Shown: positions 4,225 through 64,000 of the stretch, piece after piece
Position numbering within the stretch: position 1 is the stretch's first letter
Layout of the letters: each line of letters begins with the position of its first letter
Assembly (NCBI GenBank): GCA_021904315.1
Contig: CM038907.1
Coordinates: forward strand, 31,441,223-31,505,222
Origin: Sphagnum magellanicum
Lineage: Eukaryota; Streptophyta; Sphagnopsida; Sphagnales; Sphagnaceae
DNA: 64,000 nt
Direction of reading: 5' to 3'
Notes under the pieces: generated by a model
What the model was told of the DNA's origin: nothing
The model's database searches: none
The model's input: only the letters and a program-made list of their open reading frames with translations
Program-made: the position numbers and the translations under genes

Positions 4225-4225
4225 A

Positions 4226-4261
<36 letters not shown>
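4225..4261. repeat. (AAT)n microsatellite
   Basis: About twelve AAT units in a row. Confidence 0.95.
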
Positions 4262-5339: not shown

Positions 5340-5990
5340 ATGTCAAAGTCTTTGTTAGATCAGGAACCTATATACTGTGTGGAGCAGATCAAGATTCCTA
5401 ATGGCTTACCAGTTTTGCTCAAAACATTTGCCAAGGAAGTGATCCGAGCGCAGCCTACAAATCTGGAGGATTTTGCCCTCAAATACTTTCAGAGACTTGC
5501 CACAATGATCAAGCTGGACACCACAGCTCCACCACCAAGCATGGATCAGCTCATAGAACTATTTGGTGCCACAAAAGATCTTGAATACATCAACCAGAAG
5601 CCCCTTGCAGAGATGGCAGCGCATGCTGGCATCAATGCTGTAGCTGTTGAGAATGTATTCAAGCTTGCAAACTTTCCTTCAGATCTGGTAGATCCCAAGG
5701 AGTTCATTGTGCTGCTTCTCACAACTACCTGCAAGAGCTTCATAGCTGTGATGAGAGGTATGTTCAAGCTATTTGGTGCTAAGACTGGGGAGAAGCTCCC
5801 AGTTCCCTTATTCTTTGTGCTGGTAAACCATCTTGCCAAGAGGGACAAGGAAATCAAGAAAGAAACCATTGCTAGATTGGAATTGGATGTCAAGACTCTC
5901 AAGAAATTGAAGGAGGTGAGCATTGATGATATCAAGACCAATCCAATCATGCTTGATTATTTCAAACCTGACAAGACGCTGCTTCTGTAG
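5340..5990 (+). CDS. RSP11: Radial spoke protein 11 / ropporin-like (RIIa domain), 216 aa
   Basis: An uninterrupted 216-residue frame encodes an RIIa dimerisation/docking domain at about residues 12-50. Its signature is QIKIPNGLPVLLKTFAKEVI followed by RAQPTNLEDFALKYFQRL, the ropporin/ROPN1L/RSP11 variant of the PKA regulatory-subunit domain. The rest is helical with no membrane segment, and the length is close to that of animal ROPN1L. In this family the domain forms a four-helix bundle that docks the amphipathic helix of RSP3 in the axonemal radial spoke and helps regulate flagellar beating. Land plants keep axonemes only in motile sperm, so expression is expected in developing antheridia (inference). 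The gene appears intronless within the CDS; 5' UTR introns cannot be excluded. An intronless coding region could also reflect a retrocopy, but the frame is fully intact. Confidence 0.88.
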   Translation: MSKSLLDQEPIYCVEQIKIPNGLPVLLKTFAKEVIRAQPTNLEDFALKYFQRLATMIKLDTTAPPPSMDQLIELFGATKDLEYINQKPLAEMAAHAGINAVAVENVFKLANFPSDLVDPKEFIVLLLTTTCKSFIAVMRGMFKLFGAKTGEKLPVPLFFVLVNHLAKRDKEIKKETIARLELDVKTLKKLKEVSIDDIKTNPIMLDYFKPDKTLLL

Positions 5991-29622: not shown

Positions 29623-30510
29623 GGGGAACTACTTTTGAAGCTCAAGCTTAACTCAAGCTTAAGGTGTATTGAAATAAGAATGCATAATGTTGGAGTTAAG
29701 AATGTAAGTGTCAAAGGCAAAATAGGGAACTACTTTGAAAAGCTCAAGCTTAAGGTGTATTGAAATAATAACGCATAATGTTGGAGTTAAGAATGTAAGT
29801 GTCAAAGGCAAAATAGGGAACTACTTTTGAAGCTCAAACTTAAGATGTATTGAAATAAGAAATGCATAATGTTGGAGTTAAGAATGTAAGTGTCGAAGGC
29901 AAAATAGGGAACTACTTTTGAAGCTCAAACTGAAGGTGTATTGAAATAAGAATGCATAATGTTGGAGTTAAGAATGTAAGTGTGGAAGGTAAAATAGGGA
30001 ACTACTTTTGAAGCTCAAGCTTAACTCAAGCTGAAGGTGTATTGAAATAAGAATGCATAATGTTGTAGTTAAGAATGTAAGTGTGGAAGGCAAAATAGGG
30101 AACTCTACTTTTGAAGCTCAAGCTTAACTCAAGTTGAAGGTGTATTGAAATAAGAATGCATAATGTTGTATTAAGAATGTAAATGTGGAAGGCAAAATAG
30201 GGAACTCTACTTTTGAAGCTCAAGCTTAATTCAAGCTGAAGGTGTATTGAAATAAGAATGCATAATGTTGTAGTTAAGAATGTAAGTGTGGAAGGCAAAA
30301 TAGGGAATTCTACTTTTGAAGTTCAAGTTCAACTCAGGCTTAAGGTGTATTGAAATAAGAATGCATAATGTTCAAGTTAAGAATGTGAGTGTTGAAGGCA
30401 AAATAGGGAACTCTACTTTTGGAGCTCAAGCTTAACTCAAGCTTAAGGTGTATTGAAATAAGAGTGCATAATGTTAGAGTTAAGAATCTAAGTGTTGAAG
30501 GCAATATAGG
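29623..30510. repeat. Satellite array A: nine ~91/102-bp units
   Basis: Nine head-to-tail units each contain GCATAATGTT, near 29680, 29770, 29865, 29956, 30056, 30158, 30261, 30362 and 30467. Two length classes exist because some units lack an 11-bp TTAACTCAAGC segment. Units differ by only a few substitutions, so the array is much younger than the 29100-29345 array. It ends about 2.1 kb before the MOM1-like start codon. Confidence 0.92.
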
Positions 30511-30699
30511 GAGGGTATAAGTTACTAGTGTTAAAGTGGAGAAAAGAACCCTACAAAAAGAAAAAGAAAGAGGGAGAAAATGAATTATTATTAATAAAAT
30601 AATTAAAAAATGATAATTAAAAAAATAAAAGAAAAAGAAAAAAAGAAAAAAAAAATTTCCCTTCTTATTTTGACTCCAAATAATAGTGTATGATTCTTG

Positions 30700-31275
30700 T
30701 ACAGTTAACTGCTCAGCTAACCATAGTTAAGATAACTGCTCATGTTCCGTCTAACCAAAGGTTAGGTTGCAGATTCCTTGTAATCTTGTGATAATTGTAC
30801 ACTTTAACTTGGAATTTCCCACTCACCATAGTTTAGCTTAAATGGTGTATTCCAGCTAACCAGGGTTAGGTTGCAGAATCACATTGCAGATTCGTTGATA
30901 ACCACAGCAGCTAGTTGGAAGTTCGAACTCACGGACTAGTTAGTATAACTGTTAGGTTTGAGCTAACCAGGGTTGTAGGTTGTAGAGTTACGCTGCAGAT
31001 TGGCTGATTAATTACAGCTACTTGGAACTCACCGTGAGTTAGGATAATTGGTTAAAGTCCAGCTAACCAGAGTTAGGTTTGCAGACTCGTTGTAATGTAG
31101 AGTTACGTGGAAGTTCTAACTCTTACCATAGTTAAAAGGATTACGGTTACGCTCCAGCTAACCAGGGTTCGGTTGCAGATTCGGCGTGTGATAATGGACA
31201 GTTATTTGGGAGGTTCCAACTCACCGTAGTTAGGTTACCTGGTACGTTCCAGCTAACCAGGGTTGGGTTGCTGGC
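30700..31275. repeat. Satellite array B: six ~100-bp units in the MOM1-like promoter
   Basis: The core CAGCTAACCAGGGTTAGGTT recurs with variation near 30751, 30852, 30961, 31060, 31155 and 31250, with a seventh partial copy near 30709. Spacing is 95-109 bp. The unit is unrelated to array A, has more balanced base composition, and stops at the putative transcription start region of the MOM1-like gene. GGTTAGGTT resembles plant MYB-binding sites, so the array could be a multi-site promoter (inference). Confidence 0.85.
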
Positions 31276-31549
31276 TGGAATGTTGGGTTCCTGGCGCGCG
31301 CCCGCTCGTTTGTTCGGTTCGCTGTTTCTTCTTCTTCGTCGATGTCTTCGTCGCGGTCTGGCAGCAGCGCCCCATCTCCGGATCCCATTTACGGTTAGTC
31401 CCCGAGCCTTTCGGTGTCTGGTTTTGAGCTTTTCATCTCCGTTGTCTCCTGCTCTACCTGATTGCTTTTGGAAGATTTGCATTTGGAGGTCTGTCGCGGT
31501 TTCTATGCCCTTTCTTGTGAGAACAAAGCGAGACAGCAAGAAAGAAAGA

Positions 31550-31584
31550 ACGAGAGAGAGAGAGAGGGAGAGAGAGAAAAGGAG

Positions 31585-31630
<46 letters not shown>
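31550..31630. repeat. (GA)n microsatellite in the 5' leader
   Basis: About 80 bp of nearly uninterrupted AG/GA with a few GGG and AAAA interruptions. GA runs bind BPC/GAGA-type factors in plants; that role here is inference. Confidence 0.95.
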
Positions 31631-31632
<2 letters not shown>

Positions 31633-32004
31633 GTCAGGGTACGGAGTGAACGACGGTTGTTGTACGTCTCTGCTTCTTGTTGTCTCCTTGGTCTTTCTTT
31701 TGTTTTTGTTGTGTGCGCTTTTGTGTTTTGGTGAAAGAGAGGATTAGTTGTCTGTCTGTCTGTTGCAGTCGTCGGGGTTTTCAGTTTTGCGTTTTGTGTT
31801 TTCTTTTGCAGTTACGTTTGTTGCTAACTGCAAATAAAACAAGCAGAAACTGTAATCGGGGGTAAGGAAGGGAGCGGATAACAAAATTGTTCTTCACCAA
31901 GAAGAACCGGACGCAATTGCGGTGAACGGGAAAACACTTTGTCTTTGTGAATGTTGCTAGAAAAGCTGTTGGCGGTTGCTGTTGCGGAGTGAATCCATTG
32001 TTCT

Positions 32005-32009
32005 TGAAG

Positions 32010-32039
<30 letters not shown>
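32005..32039. repeat. (GAA)n microsatellite in the 5' leader
   Basis: About eleven GAA units lie upstream of the coding start of the MOM1-like gene. Confidence 0.95.
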
Positions 32040-32040
<1 letters not shown>

Positions 32041-32652
32041 TCTTCCTGAGACGACGACAGCGGCAACAGTTGCGAGCGAGCGCTTGTGTGAGCAGCTTAC
32101 GTACACGAGTTTGTGAGGTGTTGTGGAGCCGGTAGCTGTCAATGGAACCACCGCCGGCTCTTGACGCCAGGTACGTACAAGCTTCCTCTTCGCAAAATTC
32201 TTGTTACGCTGGCGATTTCTGTGTTTTCTTTTTTTGCTTTTCTTTTGCTTTCCTCCTTTTCCCGTAACCAGGATTCCTTGGACGAAGCTTCGGAGCACCA
32301 GAACTAGGGTTGTACGACGCTGGCATTTCCCGTCAATGTCTTCTTCTTCCTGTCTTTTGCATTCTTGTACGCCTTCTTTGAGACTAGTTCTTTCTTGTGA
32401 GGTGTACTTTCCCGGGAGTGAGCTTCGTCTGAGGTTTACTCACAAGAATTACAGCCATCCTCTGCTTAAATTTGTATTCTATAAGACAAGGGGTTCGAGT
32501 TTCCTACACTTTGTCAAAATGCAGGAGTAGCAGGCACGGTTGGATCCTGTACAATGTAGTACATTCTACCTTTGGGGTGGTGTTGTATGTCCTCTTCCAA
32601 AAGCAAAGCTATCCCCTTGTTGATCTGGTGGTCTGTGGGGTTCTTTTCATAG

Positions 32653-35600
32653 ATGGATGTAAGGGCGGAGCGACAAACAGATAGACATTGCATAATCGAG
32701 GGATGGCAAGCGGAGGAGGATGAAGATGTGGACATAGAGTTTTCACAAGAAGATGTGGATGGTGCAGATGAGGCTGGCAATCAGGCGGCTGCGGCTGCTG
32801 TAGCACCATCTCTGACAGGTTTTTGCATTCTCTATATGGGGGGGGGGCCTCAGTGTGAAGATGGGTTTGTAACAATCCCAGTATTGTGAAGCACGACAAG
32901 GATAGATGAATTCTGTTAATTCTAACCTGTCAACTGTTTTTTTGGAATCTTCAGGTGTAGCAGCTCGAGATGTGAATTTTTCGGGGGTGGATTCCTTTAC
33001 TGCATTTGGCCCTGAGCAGCATACTTTAGGGCCTTCACAAACTAGGGAATGGTGTAGAGTAGATGATGTTAATCTTGATGCTTTGGTGGAAAGACGGTCT
33101 TCCAGTTGGAAAAAGCGTGAGTTGGAGTCACATTGCTCACTTAGGCAGTTTGATCAGTGTTTAGGGTCACTCAAACAGTCATCTGACAGGAATGCCAATG
33201 AAGCACACAGAGGATTTGCGTCAGAGGCACTAGAGGAATCTCAGGGTCATAATCATATAATTACCATGCAGGGGAACTCATCTTTTAGGCGAGTGAGTGC
33301 AAGGGAATTTCCAAGCAAAAGGGCAGGCAAGTCCAGTCACTCAAGAAGCTTAGCAAGTCAGTCTGAAAGTGCTAGTGTTTCTTGGGTTGACAACAAGGAG
33401 GCAGTCATTGAAAAGAGTGATGAAAAAGAAGATGCCAAGCGAAGGAAAAGTGTGCAGGTCAGTGAACATTTCTCTAGTTTTAGAGGTACTGTGACCTTTG
33501 ATAGTGTGTCAACTCTATGTAGTCCTTGTATGTTGTAATGCCATATATGTTAAACCCTTTCTAGTAGTTGTCTCACTGTAATGTGATGTTTAAATTTGTT
33601 GTATGGGTTTTGGCAGATTGTTGAAAAGTGGAAGGGAATAGAGATGGAGCATCCATCCTCTGCAAGGATCAAAAGAGGGACGCGAAATAATGATATGATC
33701 CCTTGGAGTGTCATGAATCTTCTACCTGGCAAAAGACCAGTGGACATTAAATCGAAGGATGCTAGTGTTGATAATGAGAAAAGGGGTTCCCTGGCAAAAA
33801 GAAAAGAAAGGTTAAAGGAGAAACAGATGGAAATCCAAGAAAAGACAAAGAAACTTGTGGGAAAGGAGAAGGAGGTTTCATTGATGAGGTTTAATGGAAA
33901 AGTTGTCAGGTCTGTTGAAGACCGAAGCTTACAAGACAGAAGAAAGAATGGAAAGTTGTTTGGGAAAAGAAAGTGCGATAGTCAATCCTCTTTTGCAGCT
34001 GAGGAAGAGGTCAGGAAAAAGAAGGGACGCGTACATGATCAAAAGGAGCAGGAACTGCATGAGAATCCTTTAAATGGGAAGCGAAGGGGAGTAGTAAGCC
34101 CCTGGAATAGTAAAGAAAGAAGTCCAAAAAAATGTCGTCGACAGGTCAACAGAGCTGACATTCATGAAGATGGTGCTGAGGATAGTAGAGAGCAGGAGGA
34201 GCTACAATGGAGAGCTGGTCAGAAATTAGATGGGAAGGGGAAGAAGGCCTCAGGTGCCAAGGCACTGCCACCAGATTCAGGAAAGGAGAAATTTGCTGCA
34301 TATAGCATTACAGGTTCAGCAAAATGCAGGAGATTACCTGGTCAAGATTTTCAGAATGATAATCTGCAGGAGTATCTACATTATCCTGGTAATGAATTTG
34401 GATGGGGAAATCTTCCCATGATGTTTGGCAGGATGAACATGTGGTGCAAAAAGTCTGAGGGTCATAGCTTGTAGGTCATGAGCTGTCTATTCTGCTCATG
34501 AGTCATGGAAGCGTTATCCTTTTGAGGCACCACAAGGAAGTCTGTTTTGCTGAGAGTTGCTGAAACTACTGTGGGACATGGTCATGCAGAGGAGGGTGCA
34601 AGTGCAGCACCGAGCAGTAAAAGCAGTGACAAAGCAAAGAAACACTTGGTGGTTGATATTTTCAGTGGGATGGGAGATACAATTGGTGACAATTTGCCAC
34701 AAGGAGATGGTGAAAGATCAATACCTGGCCATGTTTCAGACTGCAATGTAATGAGAAAGTGAGTTCAATTTCTTTACAGTTGCAGGTTCACCAATTGTTT
34801 TCATAGTTTTGACCAGTTATTGATGGTGAGCAGACTTGAGTTAGTGCATCGGCTGCTACATGTTTACATACATAGCTTGCCACTAGTACCTGAGATGATT
34901 CAGAACGTGTCCATGGGTTCTCAGGGACATCATAGTTGTGATTGCAGGGTCTCTGTGAAAACAGACACCAACAAGAAGGTGGCAGGCTGTGTTCACGATG
35001 TTCCAGATGTGGAAAATTGCAAGGGAGCAAAGGTTTTGATCTTTCTCTGTCAGTGTGCACAGTTAATTGTTGTTCGATTTTGAGTTCCATATTTTCTTGG
35101 TTTCACCAGTTGACTGTCGCAGGTCATAGTAGATGCATCACTGTTTGTGGTCTCTTGAATCTGTTTGATGCTTTGCTATTTTTGTAGGCAATTCAAGAAG
35201 ACCTGTATTGCAGTTGAAGATCTGCATTTCTGTCCATCAGGACTCTTGATTGACTATGTATTGGGTTGCCAAATTTACAGTAGTTTAGTTCTACTGCTCC
35301 AAGTAGGACAAACTTTGAAACTTGTATATTGTGATTCAGGATAGTGAAAGGCAGATGGAACCTTTGCCCAATGTGGAAGAGGATGGTAGCAATGAAACTC
35401 TGGTGCATCGAAGACTGGTATGGATTAAGGTTTGTTCAACATCTTTGTGGTCCAACAATGTTGTTTGTGTTGTGACATGTTGCTGGATGCAAAGTGGTCT
35501 TCCCTGGTTTAGGATCTTCTGTTATGTTCCAATACTGTGTGGAATATAAGGCTGGACAACATGACAGTATTCAGAGCTTGGGTGGAATGTACCAAGTTTT

Positions 35601-38600
35601 TTTTTGAATCTCAGTGTAGTTTGTCTTCCATAGGGAAAATTCAACAGCCACTCATTTTGTAGCAGATTGTATTGTTGGTTGAAACAACAGTTCTCTCATG
35701 TGTTATGAAGGTCAGGCCTTGTAAAGGTGTCACAAAGCATTCTACAGAAAAAATGCTGTTAGCAACTGACATTTTTTGGCATAAGTGAATGATCATGGAC
35801 TATTTTTGCCCAGGTGGATGAGGACGGACTTTGGTGGCCTGCAAAACTTGTTGCAGAGAAGGAAGTTCCATTGAAAATTCTGAAGCAAATTTCCATGGGC
35901 AAGGGAAAATTTGTGTCCCTTTTCCAACCTGAGAAGGGATTGCAGCAATTCCAGACTGTGAGACGAAGGTTAGTTTTGTTAACATTTTCCCATATCCATA
36001 GCTAAGAATTGGAATGTTTGGTTTCTTTCTTGTTTTGATTTCTTGCTTCCCAATTAGGAGAATTTTTTTGAATCATGGTTGACCTACAACATCTGCAATT
36101 TTCGTTGCAGTTGTATGCGTCCTTTTGAGCCGTTCTATGACAGCTGTAAGAGTCTGAAGGCTAGCCCTGATTTCAAAGCGGCAGTCAATGAGGCCCACAA
36201 TCTGCTGTGTACACACTCTGCACTGGGTGTTAGCTTGGGTTCAGCCAGATGTGAAGGAGACAAACCCATTCCAGTAGAGAAAAACAACGCAGCTGAGGGA
36301 GAGGTGCCAGTTTTTGAGGGATCACAGTCAAGCAAGTTCAGGGATGGGGGTATACATACCAAAAAGCAAATTGTACTTGCTTGTTTTGCCAAGTCAAGTA
36401 GCACTTCAAAGTGTGAGGGTGACAACAACTCACTGCAACGTTCTGCAACTGGAATTATGGAAGAAGCAATGGATGAGTGTGAGAGATGTGAGGAGAAATC
36501 TGGTGGAGAGGGGTATATTCGAGAAACTGAAAGCACTGGCGAAATCCATGAAGTAGGCTATGACATTGAGTCTAGAGTGAAAGTGAGGACTGGAATTTTG
36601 ATTCCTAATAAGGATGTGTCTGAGAAGAGGAAGTCTGCAGAAGACAGGGAGGTGACTGATGCTGAGAAGGGCCACCCCATTTCTGAGAATGTTCATCTAG
36701 ACAATAGAAAGGTGCAGCTGGACATAGAAATTTTGCCAGGAAAGAGGATTTTAGCATATGACATTCCAAATGAAGAGCTGTGTCTTCAGAATGGTACTGT
36801 GCTCAAAATTGATTCCCAGTCTCTGGGAGAAGCTTTAAGTAAAAATAATACAGGCAATATTCCACATGATTGCATACGGAAAGTGGGAGTTAGCAATGTC
36901 AGATCTAGGTTTCCTAAATCTGGAAAAAGTTCAAAAGGCTTGGAGTTTGCAACACTGAACCAATCCAGCGAGTTTGCAAAACGGTTGAAGGATACTTGGG
37001 TTCGGGAGTATGATGGAGATGAGTTTCCTGAGTTTCTGAGGATGAAATTTGTTGCAGCATGTATGGCAGAGGAACAGGGATATGTAGTGAACTGGGCTAT
37101 GGAACATTCTCGTACTCTTAGCAAGGGGTTGAAATATGTAGCTTGTGGAGAGAAACCAGGATTAAGCGTTGCTTATCACAGGTTTCTGGTTGAGCTCTTA
37201 CAGAAGGTAGAGGATGGACGAGGGGATAGCTGCAAGCATGTTCAATGCAACCATCAGGTGCAATCATCTCATCTTGTAGATGCGAAGTGCCAAGAGGAGA
37301 AGTTGGATTTGCCTGAGTCTAATCCCTTGTGTCAACAATGCAAGATTGGTGGCGAGCTACTGTAGGTTATCTCTCATTGTTTTCCTGCAGTTATATTGCA
37401 ATCTGCATGTAGCTTTAGGAAGGCAACATAGATATTGTGGATGCATGTGCATTGAGTAATTTTGTAATGATTTTGTGGACATGAGTGAGTAGTCTAGATC
37501 TATTTTGCAGAAATATAAGGATTGTTTGCAGTTGGTGTGGTAGCAGGAGTTGCAGGAAGACATACCACCTCAAGTGCCTTGACCCTCCACTTGATGACAC
37601 GAGCCATGCCAATTTTTTCTGTCCAAGCTGTTCAAAGAATGGTTTGGTGGAGAAACCTCCTGTCAGCCAGGGTGAGAATGGCTGTGATCAACATAAAGAA
37701 CAAGAGAATGGCATGGCTAGGTACTTTAGCTTCCATACCTAAGTCCCCTCATATGTCCCTCATACTTCACAATTTTCTGCCATCTTGCATCCTAGGTTTT
37801 GTGGTGGATCCAACTTTTTCCTGAGTGCTGGTGTGTGGATGCTCGCTTGCCTCTGCTGCCACAGAATAGGCAGTTTTGGTGAAGGGGAGAATGGTGATGT
37901 CACACACAAAGCAGGATCAGCTAAACTGGTGGTTGCAAGGAAAGACTTCGTGGTGGAGTTTGATGTTGGAAACAATGATGATATTGGCACAGTGCAAAAA
38001 CTTTGCAAACCTCCTGATTCAACATCTGGTTTACAACCCTCAAAGATAAGGCGATCAAGCCCCATCCAATTGGTAAACAAGGATGAGCGAAGTGGCAGCC
38101 GCTGTGAAACAAGCCTCTTGCAAGCAGGCTGTAGGGATGTTTCATTTGTCTCCTCTGAAGCTCTATCTGCAGATGCAGAGCTAGAGGAAGGGGAAATTGC
38201 TCCAATTAGGAGGTTTCGTTCTTGTGAGGCTCCAGAAAAGGCACCAGAGGGTCTCTTGAAGATGCACTCCACTGGAACATCACCAGTTATAAATCAACGC
38301 ATGTTAGGCTCTTCTGAAATAGCAGTTGATAGACATACAACAAAGGAGAATGAGGGGGATCAAAGTCAGCCAGAAGAATCTCCCACTAGTGATGACCACA
38401 ACAGTGTTTGTGAGGAGTGTGAAACTGGAGGAGAACTAATGTAAGTCCTAATCCTTTGGCTACTGATTTGCTAAGATGGTTTGTGCTACAGATATTTTCT
38501 TTCTTGCTCATTTTATGACCTCCATTTTGATTGTTGTTGTTGGTCTCTTGTTGTTGGGTGTCGGTATCTTTGCATCAGTTTGTGTGATGGACAAGGGTGC

Positions 38601-41600
38601 AGAAATGTGTACCACAAGGAGTGTCTAGTGCCTCCACTAGCAGCAGTTCCTTCTGGGGAGTGGTTTTGTTCATCATGTGAGATGAAGCGGAAAGGTAGTG
38701 TAGTAGAAAAGATTTGGGGGATGCGGGAGGTGGCGACTGGAGCTCTGCCTACAGAGTCAATTGGTTGGAAGAGTGGCACTTGCCATGGTGTGAGTCATGC
38801 AGAAACCATGGATGAAGATGTGGAGGAAGATGAGGATGAAAATCTTCCTTTGAGTGCCATTTTCTGTAGAGACTCCAGAGGATTTAGGAGTGAGAGGGAT
38901 GGGATGGATATTGATCCTGATTTGTCAAAAGTGGGGAACAAAACCAGGCTTCAACTTGAGGATTTGCACTCCCAGCTTGAGGCTGAGGCTGTGGGAGGGA
39001 AGGAGTACTTTGTGCAGTGGAAATTATATTCCCATGCTCACAACAAATGGGTCCCAGAAAGGGAGCTGGAACAGCTGGCACCAAAAGAGCTTGCTTGGTT
39101 TAAGAAATCGGCAACACAAGGACGTGTAATCTTTCATCATTGACCTTATGCATTGTTTCCATAACAGCAGATGCACACTTGAAATCCAGACAGGTAGGAG
39201 TTCTTAATATATTTCTAAGGGCTACTAGGCTGAATTGCAATGTGTCATATTTTTGTGTGATCATCAGGTGGATGAATGGGAGTCTGATTGGGCTCAGCCA
39301 CAGCGTGTCATCCAGAAAAGGTTCATGGTTCAATCTGAACAGTTGCAGGAAAGATGTCTGTGCCCACAGGATGAAGATTGTAGAGTGGAGTGGTATGTGA
39401 AGTGGAAGGGTCTGGGGTATGAGCATTGCACCTGGGAACCTATGGATAGGGGTGTTCTTGCAACACCCATAGCAGCAAGGCTCTTCTCTGATTTCAAAAA
39501 TTGGGAAGATGCTGCAAGACAACGTACCACACCTGAAAGCGCAAAAGAGGTACAAAACTCCACATGGGTTAAGATGCTTACAAGAAAAGAATTCTTGAAG
39601 TATTCTGCATACTAACCTTAATTCAGAACCATTGCTGTGTGTCCCAATGAAATTACTACTGTTTTTTGGAAGGTTTGCAATTCAGACTACAGAAGTTAAA
39701 CCGAGGTTGCTTTCTTTGAGTTGGGAAAGGAACAATTCCAGGTTGGAAGAATAATGAAGGCCTTGAGGTCAATTATACTTAGCTGTTGTTGTTCTGCATG
39801 GGGTTTAGGCAGAGAGGCTCAGGAAGAATCCATTTGTGAGTGTGGAGTCTCAACCAGGTTGGAACTCTTTTGAGCCGTTGCCCCCTAACCAGCTGGATGC
39901 ATTGAATCACGTATGTGGATGGTGGCGGAGTCACAAGAATGGCATCTTGGTGTATGAGGCCAGTCAGGTTCAGAATCTGAAACCCGATTGTTCATCCTGT
40001 ATCTTATTCTGATCATGGTTCTGCTTTTGTTTATACAAACTATAGCATAGGTAATGGTGAGTTTTGTCAGAATGTAGCATAATTATCTGGGGGGGAATTT
40101 GTAGTCATGTTTTCAGTGGGCTGAGATTTCAATTGAAGGAAAAGCTTAAAGGGTCAATTTACTGCTGGTTAGCACACATGCATGATATGAAACATGGTGG
40201 TTTTGACAATTTATACACTTTGCATGTGATAGATACTGGCTATGAACCTTGCTACCTGGTTACAAGGAGTTTCCAGTGTCTGCCTGTTTAGGGTTCCTGT
40301 CTGGTTCTGATTGATTTTGTTGGAATGCAGGAGAAAATTGTCACAACAGCTCTGTTTGTTAGGACTTTGGTCAAAGGTTTTCAAGTGGTCCATCCCATCC
40401 TGATTGTGGTCAATGTGGCACTTGTACAAAGCTGGGAACGAGAGTTACATCTGTGGGCTTCTGACGTCAATGTTGTCAACTATGCGTCAAAGAATGAAGA
40501 GGCAAGAGAAATCATCCGGCGAGTGGAGTTTAACCTTAACTCTGGACTATTCAAACCAGAGGTGGTTCTTACCACTTTTGAAGTCTTCAATAATGTAAGT
40601 GTTCTGACATAATACTGTGTTGTTCAGCTGACTAGTCTGCATTTTTGAAGATGGATATAGGATGTGTTTGCCATATTGCTATGGCTTGTGCATGTAAGGA
40701 ATTACGCTAGAGAAATAATATGTTATCAATCCAGGATATGGAGATCCTGAAGAATCTGGAATGGGAGGCTTTGATAGTTGATGAGGGTTGGCGGCTGCAT
40801 CCACAAAAGATATATCACCCCTTCAGCCAGCTGAATTCTGCATTTCGGCTCCTGCTTTTGAGCGAACCACCCAAGGTATATGCCATCTTTTATGCAATTC
40901 CAATCAAATGACTCTGTCTGCCATACAGCATTTCAGTATCTTTTGATGTTTTTGATAGACTCTTTTGCTTGGTCCATGCTGAGCACAGGGTCTATGACTG
41001 TATGGCTACCACACAATCTTAAATGTTTTAAATTATTTACCGCTCTTGGAGTTGGCCATGTTTTGCTGAACTGGCTTGCTGTGGTGACTGCATGTTCCTT
41101 GCTACATACGTTAGGACTCATTTTGGCTTATTTCTCTTTGGCTGCCATAGTTTTTGGTTTTAAAGTATTTCTGCTGTTGTACTGTTTGGGCTATTAAGTT
41201 TGACCTGCCTTTATGCCATTCAATTTGGTTTATTTTTGTTTCTTGCTGGACTTAAGTGTAATGTCTTCCTCTATTTCCAAATATGGTGGGTTTGCACTCA
41301 AGCTGTGCTGTTATGATCAGTGCATCCTGAGCCAATATTAATGTTGATTGCTTAAGGCTACCCTTTTGTTTGCAAGCTGGGCAAGCTTTGCATGCAACAG
41401 AGGGAGTTAATATATATCTTGAAAGGTTGGATTTGCAGGGCAGTCAACTAAGTGATGTGGGTGAGATAAGTCTTATCCTTTTGGTGGGTGCTGGTCAGTC
41501 TACTTGAACCATTTGGTCAAGTGAACTGACAGAGCTTGGGTCTCATTGTTCTCTCTTGATGCTGATTATAGGGAGTTATCATTTGTTAGTCCTTGGAAAA

Positions 41601-44600
41601 TATTTTTACATATGGCTGGGAGCGAATGTTGTGCCTGGTTTTTCTGATCAATGGATTTCCTGCAGGCCAATGTAGAGGAGATGTCTCAGGTTGTTGGATT
41701 TCTTGAGCCAGACAAAAGCTTGTTAATTCATGGACACAATGAAGCTGCTGATATGACAGAACTTCAAACAACCTTGAATGGACGTTTGCTTGAATATGTG
41801 CAAAACAACTGTCTCAGAGAATATTGGGTACCAGTGGAAATGACCCCATTGCATCTTCGCCAGTACTGTGATATTCTTGTTCAGAACTACCCCAACCTTG
41901 TTCGAAACCGCCGTGACCAGTTCTCTTCTCAGATTCCAGATGTTGTTGTGAAGCTTCGTCAGGTAATTTCCTTCACAAACGATTTTGCATGCTTGGGTAA
42001 TTTGCCAGAAAGAGTGCTCACAGGACAAATCTCTGGCTAGTCTGTAACTTGTTAAGATGGATGAGGACTGTGTTGTAAAAGATAGCATTCTAATGGAATG
42101 TGGATTTGTGTGTGACAGTCATGCAATCATCCCTTTTTGGCAGATCCTACACTGGAAGGACGCATGGGACACAACCTTTCTCCAAAGGAGATTCTTAATG
42201 CTCACATTCAAATAAGTGGCAAGATGCAATTGCTTCATCTCATGCTCCCAATTCTTAAGACCAAAGGCCGTCGCATTCTTATTGTCTCTCAGGTGAAATT
42301 TTGCATGCTTCCCATCCCATGAAATCCCTAGGAAACTGCAGCAGCACCATTGATACATATGTTGTCATGTCTCTCAATTGCCTCCATTTTACATATTCAT
42401 TTCATCTACATGGGCAATGCCCTGCATCTATTCCTGTGTGCAGGAAACAAGACAATTGGATATTCTTGATAAGTACATGCTGCAGTTGTTTGGGGCAGAC
42501 TCATATGAGCGGGTTGATTCAGATGTTGCTGTAAACCGCAAGCAGCTTGCCATCCAACGGTTCAATTCTGAAGCTTCTAAACATTTTGTGTTCCTCCTCA
42601 AAATGGGTGTTCACATTGTGTTGAGGGATGTGCAACTGGCAATTATTTACGACAGTGATGGGAACCCATCAAATGATACGCGGGCATTGAAGAAGGTTCA
42701 TAATGAAGGGGAGGGAGGAAGCAGGCCCCTCACAGTGTTCCGCTTATACACGCGTTTGAGTGTGGAGGAGAGTGTGTTGATTCTTGCACATGACAAGAAG
42801 ATGCCCATGGTGTTTTCAAGTGCACCCATCAATAGTAAGGCATGCCATAAAGTCCTGATGAGATGTGCAATTGAGCTGTTTCAGAGATATGATGAAGAGG
42901 TGTCAAGTGTCAGTGGGCAGATTGAAAATCAGTGTAAAGGGGATATCTCACAGGATGCATTGCCCAAGGGAAGCATTGGTAGAGTCATATATGATGCAGA
43001 GAGGGTGGAAACACTTTTGGATGCGGCATTCACTTTGGAGAGTTTCTTGAAGGATATCCAGGATGAGCTTTTGCAGGCCATTTTGATGCCCAGGGACAAG
43101 AAGGCCCCTTTCTTCAGGGATTATGAGGGTGAACCCTTTAAGATGGATGATGGAGAATCTGTAGAGAGATTTTGGGCACCAATTCTGAAATGGAGATATG
43201 AGGATTGGCAGGCTAAGGAGGTACACATGATTTTAGGTGAAATTGATGCTTTCATGTGTTTTGAATACACAGAAGGGTAGGCTAGGAGAGGCTGAAGTTA
43301 TTTATTTTATGAATGATTGTCTTTCTTTCGTTTGTTGGCAGGTGAAAGCACTAGGAAAAGGGCATAGGGAGAGAAAGCGGGTGACATATAGTGAAGGCGT
43401 TTTGGCATCTGCAGCCTATTCTAAACCTCAAGTGGCAGAGGATCAAGAAGGATGCCAAAGGAGGCGTAGAAGACCAACCAGTGATGATGGTGCCCATGAA
43501 ATTGACTCTGGGGATGTTGTGTCTGCTGATATGCTGCCTCTACATGCAGAGACTAATCAGGTGGCAACGCAGCACGACACACTTAAAGAAGAGGTTCCTA
43601 AGCCTGCGGTGACAACTGAAGCTAGAGATGGTGGCCATGAGACTCCCTCAAATCCAACCATCACTGTCCTGAGAGACAAAACTGTTGCAGGAGTTGACCA
43701 ACAAGAAAGGAAAATTGCTGGACTGAGAAAATCAAACATCCATGCAACAAAGTCTTTGCTTACAACCCTTTGCCAGACTCTGCAGTTTGCTGTATGATAC
43801 AAAAACTCCTCTATTTGGGCACAATCTACGTCCTCATCTGTCTTTCTTCATTCTGGAAGATATAAGTTAGACCATTGTGTTGCCTTGGAATTTATGCATG
43901 CTATCCAATTTGAATATCAACAAATTTTGCTTTTTCTTTTGGTCCAGTGGCTCTCTGACCTCTTATTCTTGCTATCTTTTGCTTCTGGTCCTGGTTCTTC
44001 AGGCCACTGAAAGACTGCCATGTGATCCACTGTTCCCTACTTAAATGCGAGTATTTCCAGAGTTATTTTTGTTGTGCTGATCAGTGCTTTTTGGTCTGTG
44101 AGACTGTGGTGAGGAACGTTGATGATCTTTTTCTGTTCTTCATTTTGTTCCATTGACCATCGAGCTCTGAGCAAGATGGATCCTCATCTCACTCCTGGTA
44201 TCCTCCTAATAAAGATGCAATTCTGCTTTCATGTGCTCCTATTTTTCTAGTAATCATAGCATTTGGTTTTGTGTCTTGCAGGAAAATGTCACAACGCATG
44301 CACATCTGCTGCTGGGGCACATTATTCAAGTTAAACCTGAGTGTTTCGCTGCCGAGACACCTCGTGAAGGCAAAATCGCTTTTGCACTTGCTGTGGTATA
44401 GACTTCATCTTTTGAACTGTGTTCATCTTTGCATTGTTTCTAGTGCAAACTTTTATGTGTGATCAGATAAAGTTTCAATTTGTTACGAGCTCTTATCTTT
44501 CTTTTGACTTGTTGTTTCGGATGGTTGTGATATTTTATTTTAATGCTTCATTCATGGCAATTGCCTAGTTCTTGGGTTCGTAACCAGTTTGCAAGTGGTT

Positions 44601-47600
44601 GTGGGAGAAGTCTCATTAGGGTCATGTGTGGTTTGGTGTTTTACTACTTATAACTTCAGTGGGTGTAACTGGCCAAACCACTCTCTGAATGTGAAACCTA
44701 GGGGGCTTTGCATCCTTGGGGAATAAATTGGCAACCAAGCTGGTCCAGTTGTGGTTGTTAGGGGTCCATGACACTGTACTGCTTATTGGCAGATACTACT
44801 TTTTTTTGACAAGGGAGGTCTTGAGTGGTTTCTTAGTAGAGGATCCTCATGGAGCCAAACTAAATCATGGTTTTGTGGCTGCAGTGTTGGTTGGCAGCAG
44901 ATGACTTGCTTGTGGTTGTTGACAAGTCACAAAGCATTGTGAAGACAGAAGCTGCAATGAATGTTATGTATGATCATTCCCATCTTGAGCAGTTTTATTC
45001 CATGGTGAAAGGTGTGTGTGAGAGCTTTAGGAGACCATTTGCAGTGCAGTTAGCAATTGCTGGAGCAGCTGATCTGATCTCGATGCCCTTGCCTCAAACT
45101 CAAGCTTCAATAATGAGATCCAGAGCTTCCGTGCAAAAGCTTGGGCCAGCTCCCACAGCTGAGAAAGACCCTCCAAAGTCTATAACAAAACCAGAGTCTT
45201 CATCTCAGGCACAGTTATCCCGAGCAGAAGTAGTGGAACCAGCAGGTGCCTCAAAGGAGCTTGATGTACAACGGGTTGTTTTGCCTCAGCACTTGCTGGA
45301 TGCTGAAATTGAAGTTCGATTAGTGGTGTCAGAGTCTCCTACAGAATCTGTGAAGGCGTCTGGGATGCCTGCATCGTGCTCTGTTTTGCAGCAAGAGCCT
45401 GAAACATTGCCTCAGGACCAGCTACATAATCTGCAAGTATCAACTCCTGCAGATACTGTGCGTGTACTGGCAGAGGCACAAGGGGTTGGAGTGCAGTTGG
45501 CTTTGGAAGGAACACAAAATCAACAGCCTTCTCCAAAATCCTCTTCTGGGCAGCAAGGCTTACAATCCCAGCAGACATCCTTTCCATCTAAAGTACCAAA
45601 ACCTATTTCTTTAGTGTGTGTGGTGGAGTCTCCAGCTGCAGTCCAGGGACTTTCAGCACCTGTGCATGCCCCAGAAGTACCAATGCCTACAACAGAGTTG
45701 GATGCAGGCCTACATCCATCATCACCTACTTCACAGGCATCAGTTCCTGAAACTGTTGAGACCCCACCAACGGATCTGCATTCAGTTCATGGGGGCCAAG
45801 CAGAACCAAGACTGCCACATGCTCTGACTACTTCATGTCACACATCTCACCAGTTACCAGAACCCCAAATGGTTCCTCTGTCATCACAAGTGTCACCACG
45901 TGATCTGCAGACTGAAAATCCACAGCAAGTGCCGATGCCAGACACTCCTGCTCTTTTGCTAGAGAAACTGCAAGCAGATAAGGTAGTTTTCATAACAGGG
46001 CAAGCAAAGGAGATTGAGCAGTTTGGGCAACGATCAGATAGTGAGCTTGCAGAGCTGAAGAGGCGGCTAGATAGTGCATGTGCCAGTATACGTGCCACAC
46101 ATCCAAATCCTGATTCCATGATAAGGGCACAGCTTAGCCTCTATGACATTGATTCAAGGACACTAGTGCGGCAATCGGCAGAGCAGAGAAAAGCCCTTGA
46201 GATCCGGCAACGTGCTGATTGTGATAAACTCACCGAACTTCATAGAATGCAAAAAAAATTGGCAAATGGTGTGCCTTCTGAAAATGTTACAACCCTCTCA
46301 GCAGCAGTGAACACTCTCAGGGAGTATTACAAGGGACTTCTGACCCCCAGGCCTCAGGCAGCTGCTTCTTGTAATAGAGTTCAATCGCCTCAGGGCAATC
46401 AGGCTTCTCAAGCTTCCTTACAGCAGTATCCACAAGTTCTGCCACAGGGTAGACACCAGGCAAATGAATTTGTGTCTCAACAATCAGCCCCATCGCAGCA
46501 AAGGCAACATGAGAGCCAAACATGTGTGGGTGGTTCAGCTTCACCAGCTACATTAGAGCCTGGTTCAGGTGCTTCTTGTCAGACTCTTTGTTCACCACAG
46601 GGCAATGTGGCTTCGCAAGGTTACTCACGGTTGCAACCACAAATTTTGCCACAGAACAGAGGCCAGGCAAATGGGCATGGGACTCAAACTTCAGCCACTA
46701 CACAGCAAAGGCAGCATCCAACCACCCACATACATGTGAGTAATTCTGCTTCAGTGGCTAGATATCAACCTGGTCCTGCTTCTGCGCATGATAGGCTTCG
46801 ATCACCACTGGGCAATGTGGGTTCTCAGGCCTCCTCACGACTGCATACACAGCAAAGACACCATTCAGATATCCAAACATGCATGGGTAATTCAGCTTCA
46901 CCTGCAGCTTCACTGTCTGCTGAGGCTATGCATATGTTGAATGAGAATCATATAGCAAGGCGTGATTCTGTGCCCAATAATCAATGGACTCCACAAGTTC
47001 AAACTCTGCCTGCAGTGACCAATATCACGTCCACAGCTTCCCAAAATCTCCCTGGGCCTGTAACAGAATTTAATCAATCCATGCGAAACCGACCAATGAC
47101 AGTTGGTGTCACTCCTGCAGCTGTTTATTGTCCATTGCCGGTCCTGACACAAGCAGGTTGTGATCAAATCGTTCAGACTGCACCAATGTCCATCACTGTC
47201 ACATCCACAGGTGGTCAAAATCCCCTATCTGTTGTGCCCCAAACAGCTGGCCAGAATGGTTCCCAATCCCACTCTGGTCAACATCAGAGAGGCCATCAAG
47301 TTTCGCAAGTGGGTCTTTACCAAAGTGGTCAGCAACAGGGGCAAACTATGAGCAGAGGCCCTTTTGCCTCTACTGTCTCTGTTGGAGCTGCACCAAGGGG
47401 TCCTAGCCATGCACTGGTATGTGGCCAACAGCCTAGCCTTCTCAGTGATCTGTGCAAATCTTTGGCAGACTTTTATGCAATGATGAATCCTTGGTGCTCA
47501 GTTTTCCATATAGCTTCTTTTTCTAGCGGCCTCAGGCTTTGAATAAGATTCACCTGATGCCGCTACTGCTAAATTTAGGTGGATGATTTGTCCTGAGCAC

Positions 47601-50517
47601 ATTCAAGGCTACTGACGAAGGAGGCTTTCAGGGTGAAAAGTTCAGTCCTCCTGCACACTTATAGTTCCAACTGTAGATAGGAGGGCAGTATGGATTGTGC
47701 CACTAGGCAAAGCCTTGGATGTGAAAAGACACCTTAAGGAGTCACATTGATATTTCAGAAAATCCAGTTTGAATTGTTTCTTCAAACAGGTTGTATGTAT
47801 AGCAGTTATTTAATATTTGTGGCTTTGGGTGAGGTGTTTACAGACTGCAGGTGTCCCTCGTTCATTGCCTGACCCTCTCTTGAGAGAACAAGAGAAGCTG
47901 AAAAGAGAAGTGGAAAAACTCAAGCATGGATATGAGGAAGAGGTGAAGTTCTGAAACTGTCACAAAAGTCTCTGTAACGTGGTCTCAGATTGGGTACAAT
48001 GATTACTTGGTAGATCAGTTGAAAATGGAAGTCTAAAATGTTTTTATACAGATCTCACTACAATGAACACAGAGACATGTCTTTTGGTGATTTAAAAAAA
48101 TTTCCATGTCTGGCATCATGTGGAATGTTTCTGCATTATTTTGCTAATAAATTAGATTGTCAGAATCCAAGACAAATCTAACTGGCTTTGGACTCTAGCT
48201 CTTACAAGTTTTTAGTTTTGTGAGAGGCAGTTTGTTGAGGAAACTGCCTGCCAGTTTGTCTAGATCAGGCACTTGTTGGTGGTGTTATCTGTCAGCTTAT
48301 CCTGAAGGATGTTTGCTAACGCCAGCTATTTAGAATGTGATTTATGTGAGGATGAAGAATATGAGATAAGGTGCAATTCAACTCTGGTGTAGTAGGGGAA
48401 GACATGAAAGCTAGACTAGTAACTGACTCTATTTCTTTGCTTGTTTTGATTTGTTACCTCTGTCCAAAACTGAAGTGCTGTACATTGTTTTGATAGGAGC
48501 TGATTATATTGTTGGGTTTCAGGCTAAGAAGATCAAAGCAGAATACACCAGGGAGGCAGAGTTAATACGCAAAAAGTATGAGTCTTTGCTGCTGAAGGAA
48601 CATCATTCATTTAGCCTAAGACATCAAGAACTGCAACGGAATATTGCCAAGGTGGACTGCAATCGCCAATTGGTGGAAGCACTGAAGGTTCGGGAAGACT
48701 GTGTGTTGCAACCAGGTAGAACTAGTCCATTGCCCTAATAAATTACTGCTTGAATTGTATTTGACCCTCTTGCAAGTCACATATATCTTAGACAAGGTGA
48801 ATAAACATGGACATGTCCTTGCAGATGTTGCAGTTCGAGTAGGAGCAGTGCCAAATTCAATGATGGGTCTACAACAAGGCCCATCTTTCTTCAGTCCGCA
48901 GCAACCTTGTCAGCAGTCCTCTTCTGTTGGTCAGATGCAAGGTGGCCACACATCAGTAAGCCGGCCATCAAATTATGCTACTCAGTGTGTGAGCATGTTC
49001 AGCAATCCTTTGTTGTCACAAGGTATGAACTCGCAGGTGACTTTGAACTTCACTTGTATTTTACAAGGTCAGTTGCATGAGATGGTACTTTTTTGTGGAA
49101 GGATACATAGGTTGAAGACGCTAGCCAAAGCTAGTGTGCCTTAGAACCTCTTCCCTACACGACATGGCCACAGCCCCATTGTGTATTGAAGGATAAATAA
49201 CTATAGGGCATCCTGATCCTTTCTTTGATTGTTCATTTAGAGTTGTCCAGCTTGCAAGTAGTTGTCAGTTAGACCCAACAGGTGAAATGCTAAATTTAAT
49301 CAAGGTTTGTCAACCTAGTGTTGATTGTCACAGATTGAACCATCCAACCAGAGTGTAGGAATCAATGAATGAGTCTCAGGAAGGATTTTTCGACCCTACA
49401 TGGCCATTCTTTCACCAGAAACAGTAGCATCCGTCCTTGTGGGAGGCTAAACTGTGGGATCACACATGATCTCTTGATGGCTACCTGAACAGAGTAGATT
49501 TGATATGTTACCCACCCTTTATTGTTTTGCTAATTTTCATGAGGCATCTTCAGGGTTCTCTTGCTGATGATTTGTGTTTGGTTTTCATGGGACAATAGGG
49601 TCCACAGGCATGGTAATTGGCCGTCCAGTTGTAAATGTTAGCAACCGTATGGCTACTGGTTCCTATACAGCTGTTGGCAGCCCAACCGTGCCTGCCACAG
49701 CACCTCCTCCTCAACTGAACTTATCTTATCCTTCTGTTTTTGAGGCTATGCATTGGAACACTGGCCATCCAGGTGAGCATAACTAAGAATCTATAAGAGT
49801 TCTTAGTCAATAGTGTAGTATGTTGCAGCCTTATGATATATTGTGAAGGTGATTGAACATGGGGTGGTCCATAGAAGGTACTGAAAGCACATTTGGGGAT
49901 TGTTGGTTTAGGCTGCTCAAACAGATCTATCTTTTTTTGTTTTACGTTACATACAGTCTTGAGACTGAACAGGGTACAGAATTAGAGATGTGATTGAACT
50001 CACAGAAAAGGTGCAAATACCATGCAATCTGTTACTTGATCCCTGTAGTAAGAGTAACACTGTTGTGTGCTGGTGTTAAACAGCTGGCAGCAATGGTATG
50101 TCTCTGTCTTCGGTGCCACTGAGTCGTGCTGCTCATCAGAATCCAATGCAACATGGGACAATCACGAGTAATGGGACATTCCAAATGGAGGTACCCAGAC
50201 ATACAGATTTTTTACCGAGTTCTGAGATACGAAGACAAGCCTCAGGAATGAATAGAACCACATCAGTGCCCATTATGGCTGGAGGCGCATCTCCCAGTAC
50301 AGTTCCTAATGTCTCTCAGACTCCTGTAGCAGTGCCCACTGTGGCAAGCCCAAGGGAAGCCACAACATTCTTTCATGGGGTCACAAGGGAGAGTCAAACT
50401 CCACCATTGGATTCTCCACCACCTGTGCATCTTCCCCTTGTGAACAGTGCAAGTGCTCCTGTGCAAGAAAGGCCCATGAGTGTCATCTATTTGACAGATT
50501 CAGATGAAGAAGAATAA
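32653..50517 (+). CDS. MOM1: MOM1-like CHD3-derived protein: PWWP, 2 PHD, 2 chromodomains, dead SNF2 helicase, CMM2 (~3,600 aa)
   Basis: About 26 exons join in phase: 32653-32818, 32955-33457, 33617-~34388, ~34557-34758, 34948-35032, 35340-35429, 35814-35968, 36111-37361, 37511-37720, 37865-38440, 38579-39125, 39268-39549, 39809-39967, 40331-40594, 40735-40875, 41666-41962, 42119-42292, 42444-43220, 43342-43791, 44282-44395, 44885-~47450, 47851-47942, 48523-48715, 48825-49022, 49599-49772, 50084-50517. MOM1 is a nuclear factor that keeps transposons silent downstream of DNA methylation and descends from CHD3 remodelers. Three things tie this gene to MOM1: the degenerate helicase, the ALAV-CWLAADDLL segment after it (matching the LCWTAA region of MOM1), and the CMM2 coiled coil. 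Unlike Arabidopsis MOM1, it keeps PWWP, PHD and chromodomains. A stop codon directly precedes ATG 32653, so this is the first possible start unless an upstream exon joins at the TTCATAG acceptor. The intron near 34.4-34.55 kb and the long-exon donor near 47.45 kb are uncertain. Confidence 0.88.
35340..36140 (+). other. PWWP domain of the MOM1-like protein (~res 590-660)
   Basis: Spliced exons 35340-35429, 35814-35968 and the start of 36111-37361 read RRLVWIK-VDEDGLWWPAKLV, a spacer, then GKFVSLFQPEKGLQQF and RPFEPF. LWWPAK is the PWWP signature and the rest fits a five-stranded barrel. PWWP domains bind methylated histone tails and DNA. All three junctions keep phase. Confidence 0.75.
37327..38690 (+). 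other. Two PHD fingers of the MOM1-like protein
   Basis: PHD1 (about res 1065-1120) reads LCQQCKIGGELL, then IVCSWCGSRSCRKTYHLKC and FFCPSC. PHD2 (about res 1327-1375) reads CEECETGGELILCDGQGC, YHKECLVPPL and WFCSSC. PHD2 has the canonical C4-H-C3 spacing; PHD1 has a longer gap before its third Cys. Both are split by an intron right after GGEL, in the same phase. CHD3-type PHD fingers read the histone H3 tail. A Ser/Glu-rich linker (37865-38400) with ELEEGEIAP separates them. Confidence 0.9.
38990..39549 (+). other. Tandem chromodomains of the MOM1-like protein
   Basis: Chromodomain 1 (about res 1475-1520) includes EYFVQWKLYSHAHNKWVPER. Chromodomain 2 (about res 1545-1590, second exon) includes RVEWYVKWKGLGYEHCTWEP. 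Both have the WK-x-W aromatic pattern of CHD proteins. The exon junction 39125/39268 is in phase 0 and joins them directly, as in CHD3/PICKLE. Confidence 0.88.
39809..43220 (+). other. Degenerate SNF2/CHD3 helicase module, predicted inactive
   Basis: The order of SNF2 motifs is kept but their catalytic residues are not. LPPNQLDALN replaces the Q-motif region. Walker A (GxGKT) is replaced by GILVYEASQEKIV across the 39967/40331 junction. Motif Ia (ILIVVNVALVQSWERELHLW) is preserved. The DEAH box is VDEGW (40777-40791). LRQSCNHPFL and the RILIVSQ-ETRQLDILDKYM motif IV are clear. In lobe 2, motif V is shortened to KMGVHIVL and the arginine-finger motif VI (QxxRxxRxGQ) is replaced by LKKVHNEGEGG. 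IIYDSDGNPSND is retained. All junctions are in frame, so the fold is probably maintained without ATPase activity, as in MOM1. Confidence 0.88.
46366..46920 (+). repeat. Three in-frame ~70-residue Gln/Ser-rich repeats in the long exon
   Basis: Inside exon 44885-~47450 the blocks SPQGNQASQAS, SPQGNVASQGYSRLQ and SPLGNVGSQASSRL recur every ~210 bp (about 46387, 46596, 46806). Each is followed by QQRQH-SQTCVGGSASP-like text. They are coding tandem duplications (about res 2900-3085) in a disordered linker. Confidence 0.85.
47851..48715 (+). other. CMM2-like coiled coil of the MOM1-like protein
   Basis: Exons 47851-47942 and 48523-48715 join in phase 0 to give PLLREQEKLKREVEKLKHGY, then KKIKAEYTREAELIRKKYES and HQELQRNIAKVDCNRQLVEA. 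The heptad pattern and the RKKYE - L core match CMM2 of MOM1. In Arabidopsis, CMM2 self-dimerises and binds PIAL SUMO-ligase-like partners. This segment (about res 3254-3350) is the strongest evidence that the gene belongs with MOM1 rather than with ordinary CHD3 proteins. Confidence 0.78.
50479..50514 (+). other. C-terminal SUMO-interacting motif
   Basis: The last residues of the MOM1-like protein are SVIYLTDSDEEE followed by the stop. A hydrophobic V-I-x-L core followed by Ser/Asp/Glu is a classical SUMO-interacting motif. The position at the very C-terminus makes it accessible. Binding has not been shown here; this is motif inference. Confidence 0.65.
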
Positions 50518-63400: not shown

Positions 63401-64000
63401 AAAAGGGATTCCATGGGTCTTGCAGAGACTGAAAATGAGCTTGCAGCAACAAGGTACTGTCTGGGAGTTCAGCAGCCACAGCATATCTGCAAATCTTAGA
63501 TGAAAGCTAGTTATCCCAGAGTTCGACTCTTACCTTCTTCCCACCTCATTAGTACTTTTGTTGTTGTTGAGACGGTGAAAATTATATCAGCATGCTTTGC
63601 AACATCCCCTGCTTGAACGACTGGTCTATGTGTGTGTCCATGTAGACGAGCAGTGAGACAACGGCGGAACCCAAAGGAGAGTGCAGATCTGACTAGTGTT
63701 CAAGAACTTCTTGCTGCCATTGATCGCCAGTGTCACTCGGGTGAGAACATTGTCATTGTACTTTCTTCATAAATGTGGTAACTGTTGGACCTTTGCAAGC
63801 TGCTATTACGATTGAGGTCACATGAATTATTTTGCAATAGAATAAGTTGATGTCAAATTAGAGAAGCTGGATTATGGTCTGTAATGTACAGAAAACTCAC
63901 ATAAAGACTCGTCAATGGCAGGTCTTTCAGAAATTATGAAGCACTGCATGTACATAGGCATGGCAGATGAGGTGCTTGCATTGGCACAATGCAAAACACG
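60465..64000 (+). CDS. MLH1: DNA mismatch repair protein MLH1, N-terminal part (window-truncated)
   Basis: Eleven exons join in phase: 60465-60710, 60848-61020, 61213-61285, 61492-61626, 61787-61997, 62452-62600, 62700-62798, 63025-63094, 63279-63453, 63646-63740 and 63922 to beyond 64000. The GHKL ATPase motifs are intact: [16 protein letters not shown] (catalytic Glu, Asn), [21 protein letters not shown] and KGTQIT. Then follow [29 protein letters not shown] and [11 protein letters not shown], which identify MLH1 rather than PMS1 or MLH3. The last exons ([20 protein letters not shown]) begin the C-terminal dimerisation domain that binds PMS1. MLH1 acts in the nucleus after MutS recognition of mismatches and in meiotic crossing-over. 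The start is the first ATG; it gives a short acidic/Ala-Pro leader before [20 protein letters not shown]. For exon 9 the acceptor at 63278 was chosen because the one at 63293 gives an immediate stop. Confidence 0.95.

Follow-up and report, generated by a model that had tools for sequence, protein, structure and literature searches.

Does a moss carry a protein that joins the chromatin-reading domains of a CHD3 remodeller to the silencing motif of MOM1? The question is raised by a locus in a stretch of 64,000 nucleotides of Sphagnum magellanicum (the window; chromosome C1). The original prediction had described there a PWWP domain, two PHD fingers, two chromodomains and a SNF2 module with a dead motor, in CHD3 order, followed by the CMM2 coiled coil of MOM1. 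MOM1 homologues have been reported from poplar, rice and Selaginella, several of them with complete SNF2, PHD or chromodomains next to CMM motifs; essential SNF2 residues were lost, and MOM1 was considered to be derived from CHD3 (PMC2507757, published in 2008). In that study, CMM2 was not found in the moss Physcomitrella or the green alga Chlamydomonas, and MOM1 was dated to the origin of vascular plants. The same dating of MOM1/CMM2 silencing has been given elsewhere (PMC3276543).

Exon proposals came from a small gene finder that had learned from long open frames in the same genome and in the window; after correction by hand they gave the following model:

32653..50517, + strand: predicted MOM1-type gene, coding region with the stop included, 26 exons, 3,617 aa
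32653..32818, + strand: exon 1, with the N-terminal motif [IV]IxGWxx[ED]EDExV[DN]I; its ATG lies right after a possible acceptor, ttttcatag

The hand-spliced model is a single open frame from the ATG at 32653 to the stop at 50515-50517, with zero internal stops and GT-AG borders at all 25 introns. When the gene finder was left free to split the locus, it returned one gene at 31.0-51.3 kb in all three settings, with exons and ends that varied. The motif of exon 1 was also found near the start of the gene model of a related copy on C8 and of the upstream model of another on C10. Confidence in the model is lowest at the start codon and in exons 4-5. Splice scores fall below zero at the donors of exons 8, 11, and 19 and at the acceptor of exon 4, and the coding score of exon 24 is slightly negative. 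Exons placed by the gene finder further 5′ (31280-32555) are rich in GA repeats and hold no domain, and were dropped; an alternative start chosen by eye (ATG 32143) was dropped as well, as it meets a stop via the best next acceptor. Upstream of the gene lies a tandem-repeat array with a unit of about 90-100 bases (29629-30578), and before the gene a CCAGCTAACCAGGGTT-type repeat occurs five times at intervals of 95-107 bases (30833-31271).

The locus might instead hold two adjacent genes, one CHD3-like and a separate one bearing the CMM motifs, that are joined only by the splicing model. Low splice scores mark the donors between the end of the SNF2 module and the MOM1 domain (-1.1 at 43791 and 0.3 at 44395), and the longest introns reach 790 and 580 bases. 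Against this, one frame runs through all junctions, and vascular MOM1 homologues have been described as single predicted proteins (PMC2507757). Evidence from the related loci, given below, also favors a single gene.

Matches of the predicted protein to PWWP, PHD, Chromo, SNF2-rel_dom, Helicase_C, and MOM1 all exceed the curated Pfam cut-offs. The reader domains are as follows:

35412..36201, + strand: PWWP domain, aa 611-698, three exons (PF00855, 1.3e-6, 29.2 bits against a cut-off of 25.6; 1.5e-7 on a separate piece)
37330..37625, + strand: PHD finger 1, aa ~1075-1116 (PF00628, 1.3e-8; by eye, none of the eight zinc ligands is missing)
38406..38678, + strand: PHD finger 2, aa 1329-1373 (PF00628, 3.4e-11; best PDB match CHD4, 6ryr, 1e-19)
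39000..39549, + strand: double chromodomain, aa ~1481-1616 (PF00385 in two stretches, 9.3e-14; 5.6e-14 on another cut)

Taken together, the two PHD stretches reach 4.8e-15 in Pfam. The HMM search of the translation suggested by the original prediction thus recovered PWWP, PHD, Chromo, and SNF2 through Pfam, and CMM2 was recovered through a PDB match (3VEM); the predicted order of the domains was borne out.

The motor and the domain that follows it were read as listed here, with the motifs taken from an alignment in which CHD1, CHD4, and one CHD3 from Sphagnum served as references.

39890..41824, + strand: SNF2 N-lobe (SNF2-rel_dom), aa 1644-1857 (PF00176, 7.8e-21)
39962-40339 (split), + strand: motif I, GLGKT changed to SQEKI
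40780-40791, + strand: motif II, DEGH/DEAH changed to DEGW
40861-41668 (split), + strand: motif III, GTPLQN changed to SEPPKA
42230..42713, + strand: SNF2 C-lobe (Helicase_C), aa 1941-2046 (PF00271, 4e-6)
42606-42623, + strand: motif V, GLGINL changed to GVHIVL, with three residues deleted
42681-42713, + strand: motif VI, QAxxRAHRIGQ changed to RALKKVHNEGE
43158..43395, + strand: DUF1087, a marker of CHD subfamily II, aa 2200-2238 (PF06465, 1.5e-8 on the uncut piece)

DUF1087 was seen only on an uncut piece of the protein and was missed by Pfam when the protein was cut at aa 2220. With it, the predicted protein holds the combination of PHD, double chromodomain, SNF2, and DUF1087 that marks a CHD3; the intact helicase motifs of an active CHD3 are not found. 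The motor appears degenerate at five motifs and is probably dead, as had been predicted. The copy on C8 shows the same pattern of decay (SQEKM, DEAR, SETLKM, GIHISL, RALKKVHFEGI). The lysine of motif I and the DE pair of motif II are kept in the window protein, and these could be taken as marks of a motor that still works with unusual motifs. Such activity is extremely unlikely given that the remainder of GxGKT, motifs III and V, and both arginines of motif VI are changed, that most of the changes are common to the C8 copy, and that the C10 copy has no detectable C-lobe.

Downstream of the degenerate motor, the predicted protein continues into a region of MOM1 type:

43729..45034, + strand: MOM1-like domain PF25029, aa 2350-2458, three exons (1.7e-11; 1.3e-12 on the uncut piece; 5.6e-13 in a third scan)
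45947..46354, + strand: a second coil-like stretch ahead of CMM2, conserved among the three Sphagnum copies (aa 2763-2898)
47868..48681, + strand: CMM2 coiled coil, aa 3261-3338, two exons (3VEM, E 7.9e-4; shuffle test)
50479..50514, + strand: SVIYLTDSDEEE, a SUMO-interaction motif resembling CMM3 at the very end of the protein (judged by eye; the models for C8 and C10 end alike)

From its position, the PF25029 domain is taken as CMM1. The candidate CMM2 was compared with PDB sequences, of which six matched at E <= 1. Arabidopsis MOM1 CMM2 (3VEM) was the top match (E 7.9e-4), followed by an apparently designed protein (E 0.086). Without gaps, 22 of 78 positions are identical to Arabidopsis CMM2 (28%) with a BLOSUM62 score of 86, a value reached by 0 of 100,000 shuffles (mean -37.2, s.d. 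18.0); the next best placement of Arabidopsis CMM2 on the 3,617-aa protein scored 30. Best PDB match and shuffles point to a CMM2 of the MOM1 family, at a low level of similarity. It has been shown that a double mutation of L1761 and L1765 broke the self-interaction of Arabidopsis CMM2 (PMC3276543); in the ungapped alignment the equivalent residues are I and Y. L1740, N1799, I1802, and L1806, which are located at either end of the coil in Arabidopsis and were mutated in the same study, are not kept in this alignment.

The protein ends in VIYLTDSDEEE, which was compared by eye with the Arabidopsis CMM3 SUMO-interaction motif VVCLS, a motif that binds SUMO in yeast and is dispensable for silencing (PMC6084981). 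The model endings on C8 (SLIYLSDSEDEQ) and C10 (VLIELSDSGEE) are similar, so that a CMM3-like end occurs in all three models. CMM1, CMM2, and a C-terminal CMM3/SUMO-interaction motif, the marks of the MOM1 family, would all be present in the predicted protein. The conserved coil-like stretch at aa 2763-2898 is 32-33% identical to its C8 and C10 counterparts. Its profile matched no Pfam family and nothing convincing in PDB (best E 0.34). Kinship of this stretch to CMM2 was considered and rejected, as Arabidopsis CMM2 scores only 24 there.

The likeness to MOM1 could also have arisen by convergence or chance, in a degenerate CHD3 that ends in an unrelated coiled coil. Coils match easily, and the similarity to CMM2 is modest. 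When the three Sphagnum copies were combined in a profile, 3VEM still came first but only with E 0.0045, which, against expectation, is no gain over the single sequence, and the best ungapped placement on the C8 copy scores only 26. This origin of the likeness is improbable nonetheless: the MOM1-domain match is a separate one and lies over its cut-off, the CMM3-like ending recurs in each model, the order of the motifs is the published MOM1 order, and no shuffle in 100,000 reached the score of the C10 copy (54), just as none did for the window.

A search of the genome with CMM2 gave five matches: the two exons of the window, C10:350628 (60%, 1.7e-16), C8:8329219 (47%, 6.9e-8), and a weak match on C16 (0.28). 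We found CMM2, then, at three loci, on C1 (the window), C8, and C10. The MOM1-domain profile, run exon-wise in six frames, gave its best values on C8 (E 0.18), C1 (0.20), C10 (2.2), and C19 (7.8), none of them over the cut-off and the window's own included; the same profile had no match in any of the 14 control genomes. At C8 and C10, chromodomain-SNF2 exons lie ~5 to 9 kb before CMM2, and chromodomain, SNF2, MOM1 domain (weak), and CMM2 follow one another within about 10 kb. The positions of chromodomain-SNF2 exons, MOM1 domain, and CMM2 indicate that all three loci keep the same order, with thin MOM1-domain evidence at C10.

Both paralogous gene models are rough. At C8, a single gene was predicted; PF25029 stays below the cut-off (0.026) where the model ends short, no PWWP was found in a Pfam scan of the gene model, and the PHD fingers were detected by tblastn only and are absent from the Pfam scan. 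At C10, the gene finder predicted two genes (297 and 2,328 aa) that part before the PWWP-like exons. These exons were detected by tblastn (53% over 49 aa) and are absent from a Pfam scan that covered the first 1,079 of the 2,328 model residues, less one cut-out stretch; neither a PHD finger nor the SNF2 C-lobe was found there by tblastn. The C10 copy (C10:345366-353000) has apparently lost the SNF2 C-lobe and kept CMM2, which parallels the loss of another part of SNF2 in Arabidopsis MOM1.

For the division of the window locus into two genes, the split at C10 might be taken as a precedent, though it falls before the PWWP-like exons. The gene finder holds a single gene at the window and at C8, and the same order and closeness of the domains at C8 and C10 agree with this, making two genes very improbable. 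The single gene of the original prediction is retained in what follows.

Fragments of the family occur elsewhere in the genome. Stop-bearing ones are found on C9 (8855500-8858973; three pieces, 74-84%) and C12 (14843192-14846476; three pieces, 74-83%) and are nearer to the window gene than the C8 and C10 copies are; within the largest piece from C9, four stops interrupt what is one single exon in the window. On C3 there are only pieces of the chromodomain region. With such fragments about, the window gene might be thought a decaying pseudogene too; this is highly unlikely, as neither a stop nor a frame break interrupts its 3,617 codons and comparison with C8 and C10 shows signs of constraint. 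Compared with C8, the two SNF2 lobes gave dN/dS values of 0.22 (N-lobe, 231 codons) and 0.15 (C-lobe, 250 codons), which are rough because dS is near saturation (1.4); CMM1 gave 0.47 over 54 kept codons, and for CMM2, dS was too saturated to give a value. Over all kept columns, which were chosen by local identity and so lower the ratio, dN/dS was 0.17 against C8, from 1,557 codons out of 2,652 aligned, and 0.22 against C10, from 1,000 out of 2,157.

The ancestry of the gene was studied in a SNF2 tree of 430 columns and 11 sequences, in which C10 was represented by its N-lobe alone and vascular MOM1 was absent, 3VEM being the sole vascular MOM1 sequence compared in this work. The three Sphagnum MOM copies grouped as a clade (100/100), with a branch length of 1.37. 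This clade joined, at 97.8/98, a Sphagnum CHD3 gene on C6 whose motor motifs are intact and which we take to be CHR4/PKR1-like; human CHD4 stood apart, and CHD1, ISWI, and SNF2 types split off at 99.9/100. When a twelfth sequence was added (a divergent CHD gene, C13), the join of MOM copies and CHD3 was recovered at 97.4/98. The original prediction had held that a placement with catalytically active CHD3 proteins would speak against it. The window gene indeed comes out sister to an intact-motor CHD3 (98%), on a long branch that only its two paralogues share; this position fits a derivation from CHD3 and is no sign of an active motor. A branch of this length invites tree artefacts such as long-branch effects. 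Tree and DUF1087 both point to a CHD3 ancestry of the window gene.

Based on the domain set, the decay of the motifs, the conservation among paralogues, and the tree, all read from sequence, the window very probably contains an apparently intact, CHD3-derived MOM1-family gene of a Sphagnum moss. Its nearest tree neighbor, the CHD3 gene on C6, shares with it the architecture PHD - chromodomains - SNF2 - DUF1087, as do PICKLE and human CHD4; the CHD3 remodellers compared have intact motor motifs and no described CMM motifs, whereas the window protein has decayed motifs and CMM motifs. Arabidopsis MOM1 (2,001 aa) resembles the window protein in CMM1, CMM2, CMM3/SIM, and a degenerate SNF2 remnant, but has lost the PHD, the chromodomains, and the first SNF2 lobe, all of which the window protein keeps (PMC2507757). 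Poplar PtMOM1 and Selaginella SmMOM1 resemble it in PHD, chromodomains, and CMM motifs, with a full SNF2 whose essential residues are mutated in PtMOM1 (PMC2507757). For PtMOM1 one PHD finger is named in that paper, against two in the window protein, and PWWP, which the window protein has, occurs nowhere in its text. The extra conserved coil-like stretch and the moss host are further points of difference from these two proteins of vascular plants.

The suggestion of a CHD3-MOM1 intermediate is consistent with the domains and the CHD3 origin; it is not a new kind of protein, as the hybrid as such is known since 2008 for vascular plants, with PtMOM1 and SmMOM1 as examples (PMC2507757). What is new is the moss lineage, together with a PWWP and a second PHD finger that lie outside the architectures in the text of that paper. 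Light-harvesting proteins of the genome also point to a moss. For one of them, with entry 9vfj set aside, 7xqp_9 (5.6e-102) and 8htu_9 (1.4e-101) led the best 60 of 98 PDB matches, and the next chain followed at 4.6e-68; two long chains of 9vfj scored higher (4.2e-113 and 7.1e-109). For an Lhca3-like protein, the first four of 40 matches were 7xqp, 8htu, 7ksq, and 6l35. The entries 7xqp, 8htu, and 7ksq come from Physcomitrella, with Lhcb9 as chain 9. Entry 6L35 is linked to photosystem I of a moss (PMC7884438). Among the open-literature matches listed (titles and abstract openings), no report of a bryophyte MOM1 or of a MOM1 with PWWP was found, and the gene may already carry some name in the automatic annotation of the genome.

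How might such a protein act? In Arabidopsis, silencing at the tested targets is kept when the SNF2 remnant is deleted and with reader domains absent (PMC2507757). CMM2 self-associates and binds PIAL1/2, and its tethering to the FWA promoter brings methylation (PMC10338684, the title of which names MORC6 as the link). It has been shown that CMM2 is enough where a locus is co-regulated by small RNAs, and that other loci need the entire MOM1 (PMC3276543). One PIAL each is given for Sphagnum fallax and Physcomitrium in Table 1 of PMC11371177, and the mentions of MOM1 in that paper concern PIAL. By analogy, PWWP, PHD, and chromodomains would hold the window protein on modified nucleosomes, and the SNF2 module, without ATP hydrolysis, would be kept as a structural part. 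CMM2 would dimerise and gather partners resembling PIAL-type SUMO ligases, and RNA-directed methylation and MORC proteins might then keep the locus silent; dimerisation, partners, and silencing are carried over here from Arabidopsis. The retained reader set would be expected to matter at loci outside small-RNA co-regulation. A role as a reader-bearing silencing scaffold without a motor is plausible for the predicted protein.

It seems rather likely that the MOM1 platform is older than vascular plants. A motor-dead CHD3 with CMM1-CMM2-CMM3 and full readers (PWWP, two PHD) would have been present in the ancestor of mosses and vascular plants; Physcomitrella would have lost its copy, or the probe was too distant, and Arabidopsis MOM1 would be the stripped-down remnant of a multi-reader scaffold. 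At 28% identity to Arabidopsis CMM2, a moss copy could well have been missed by the 2008 search, so that a loss in Physcomitrella is not established. If this is true, CMM2 at three moss loci would place the origin of MOM1/CMM2 before mosses and vascular plants diverged, and the moss would serve as a living system for testing reader domains and CMM2 together in one protein.

Two further genes were predicted in the window. At 60465-63772 (+ strand) we identified a putative MutL-type mismatch-repair gene (DNA_mis_repair, 2.2e-26), MLH1-like by eye. The other, at 724-5990 (+ strand), has a dimerisation domain of the RIIa type (1.6e-5). Flagellar proteins often contain this domain, which would suit a plant with swimming sperm.
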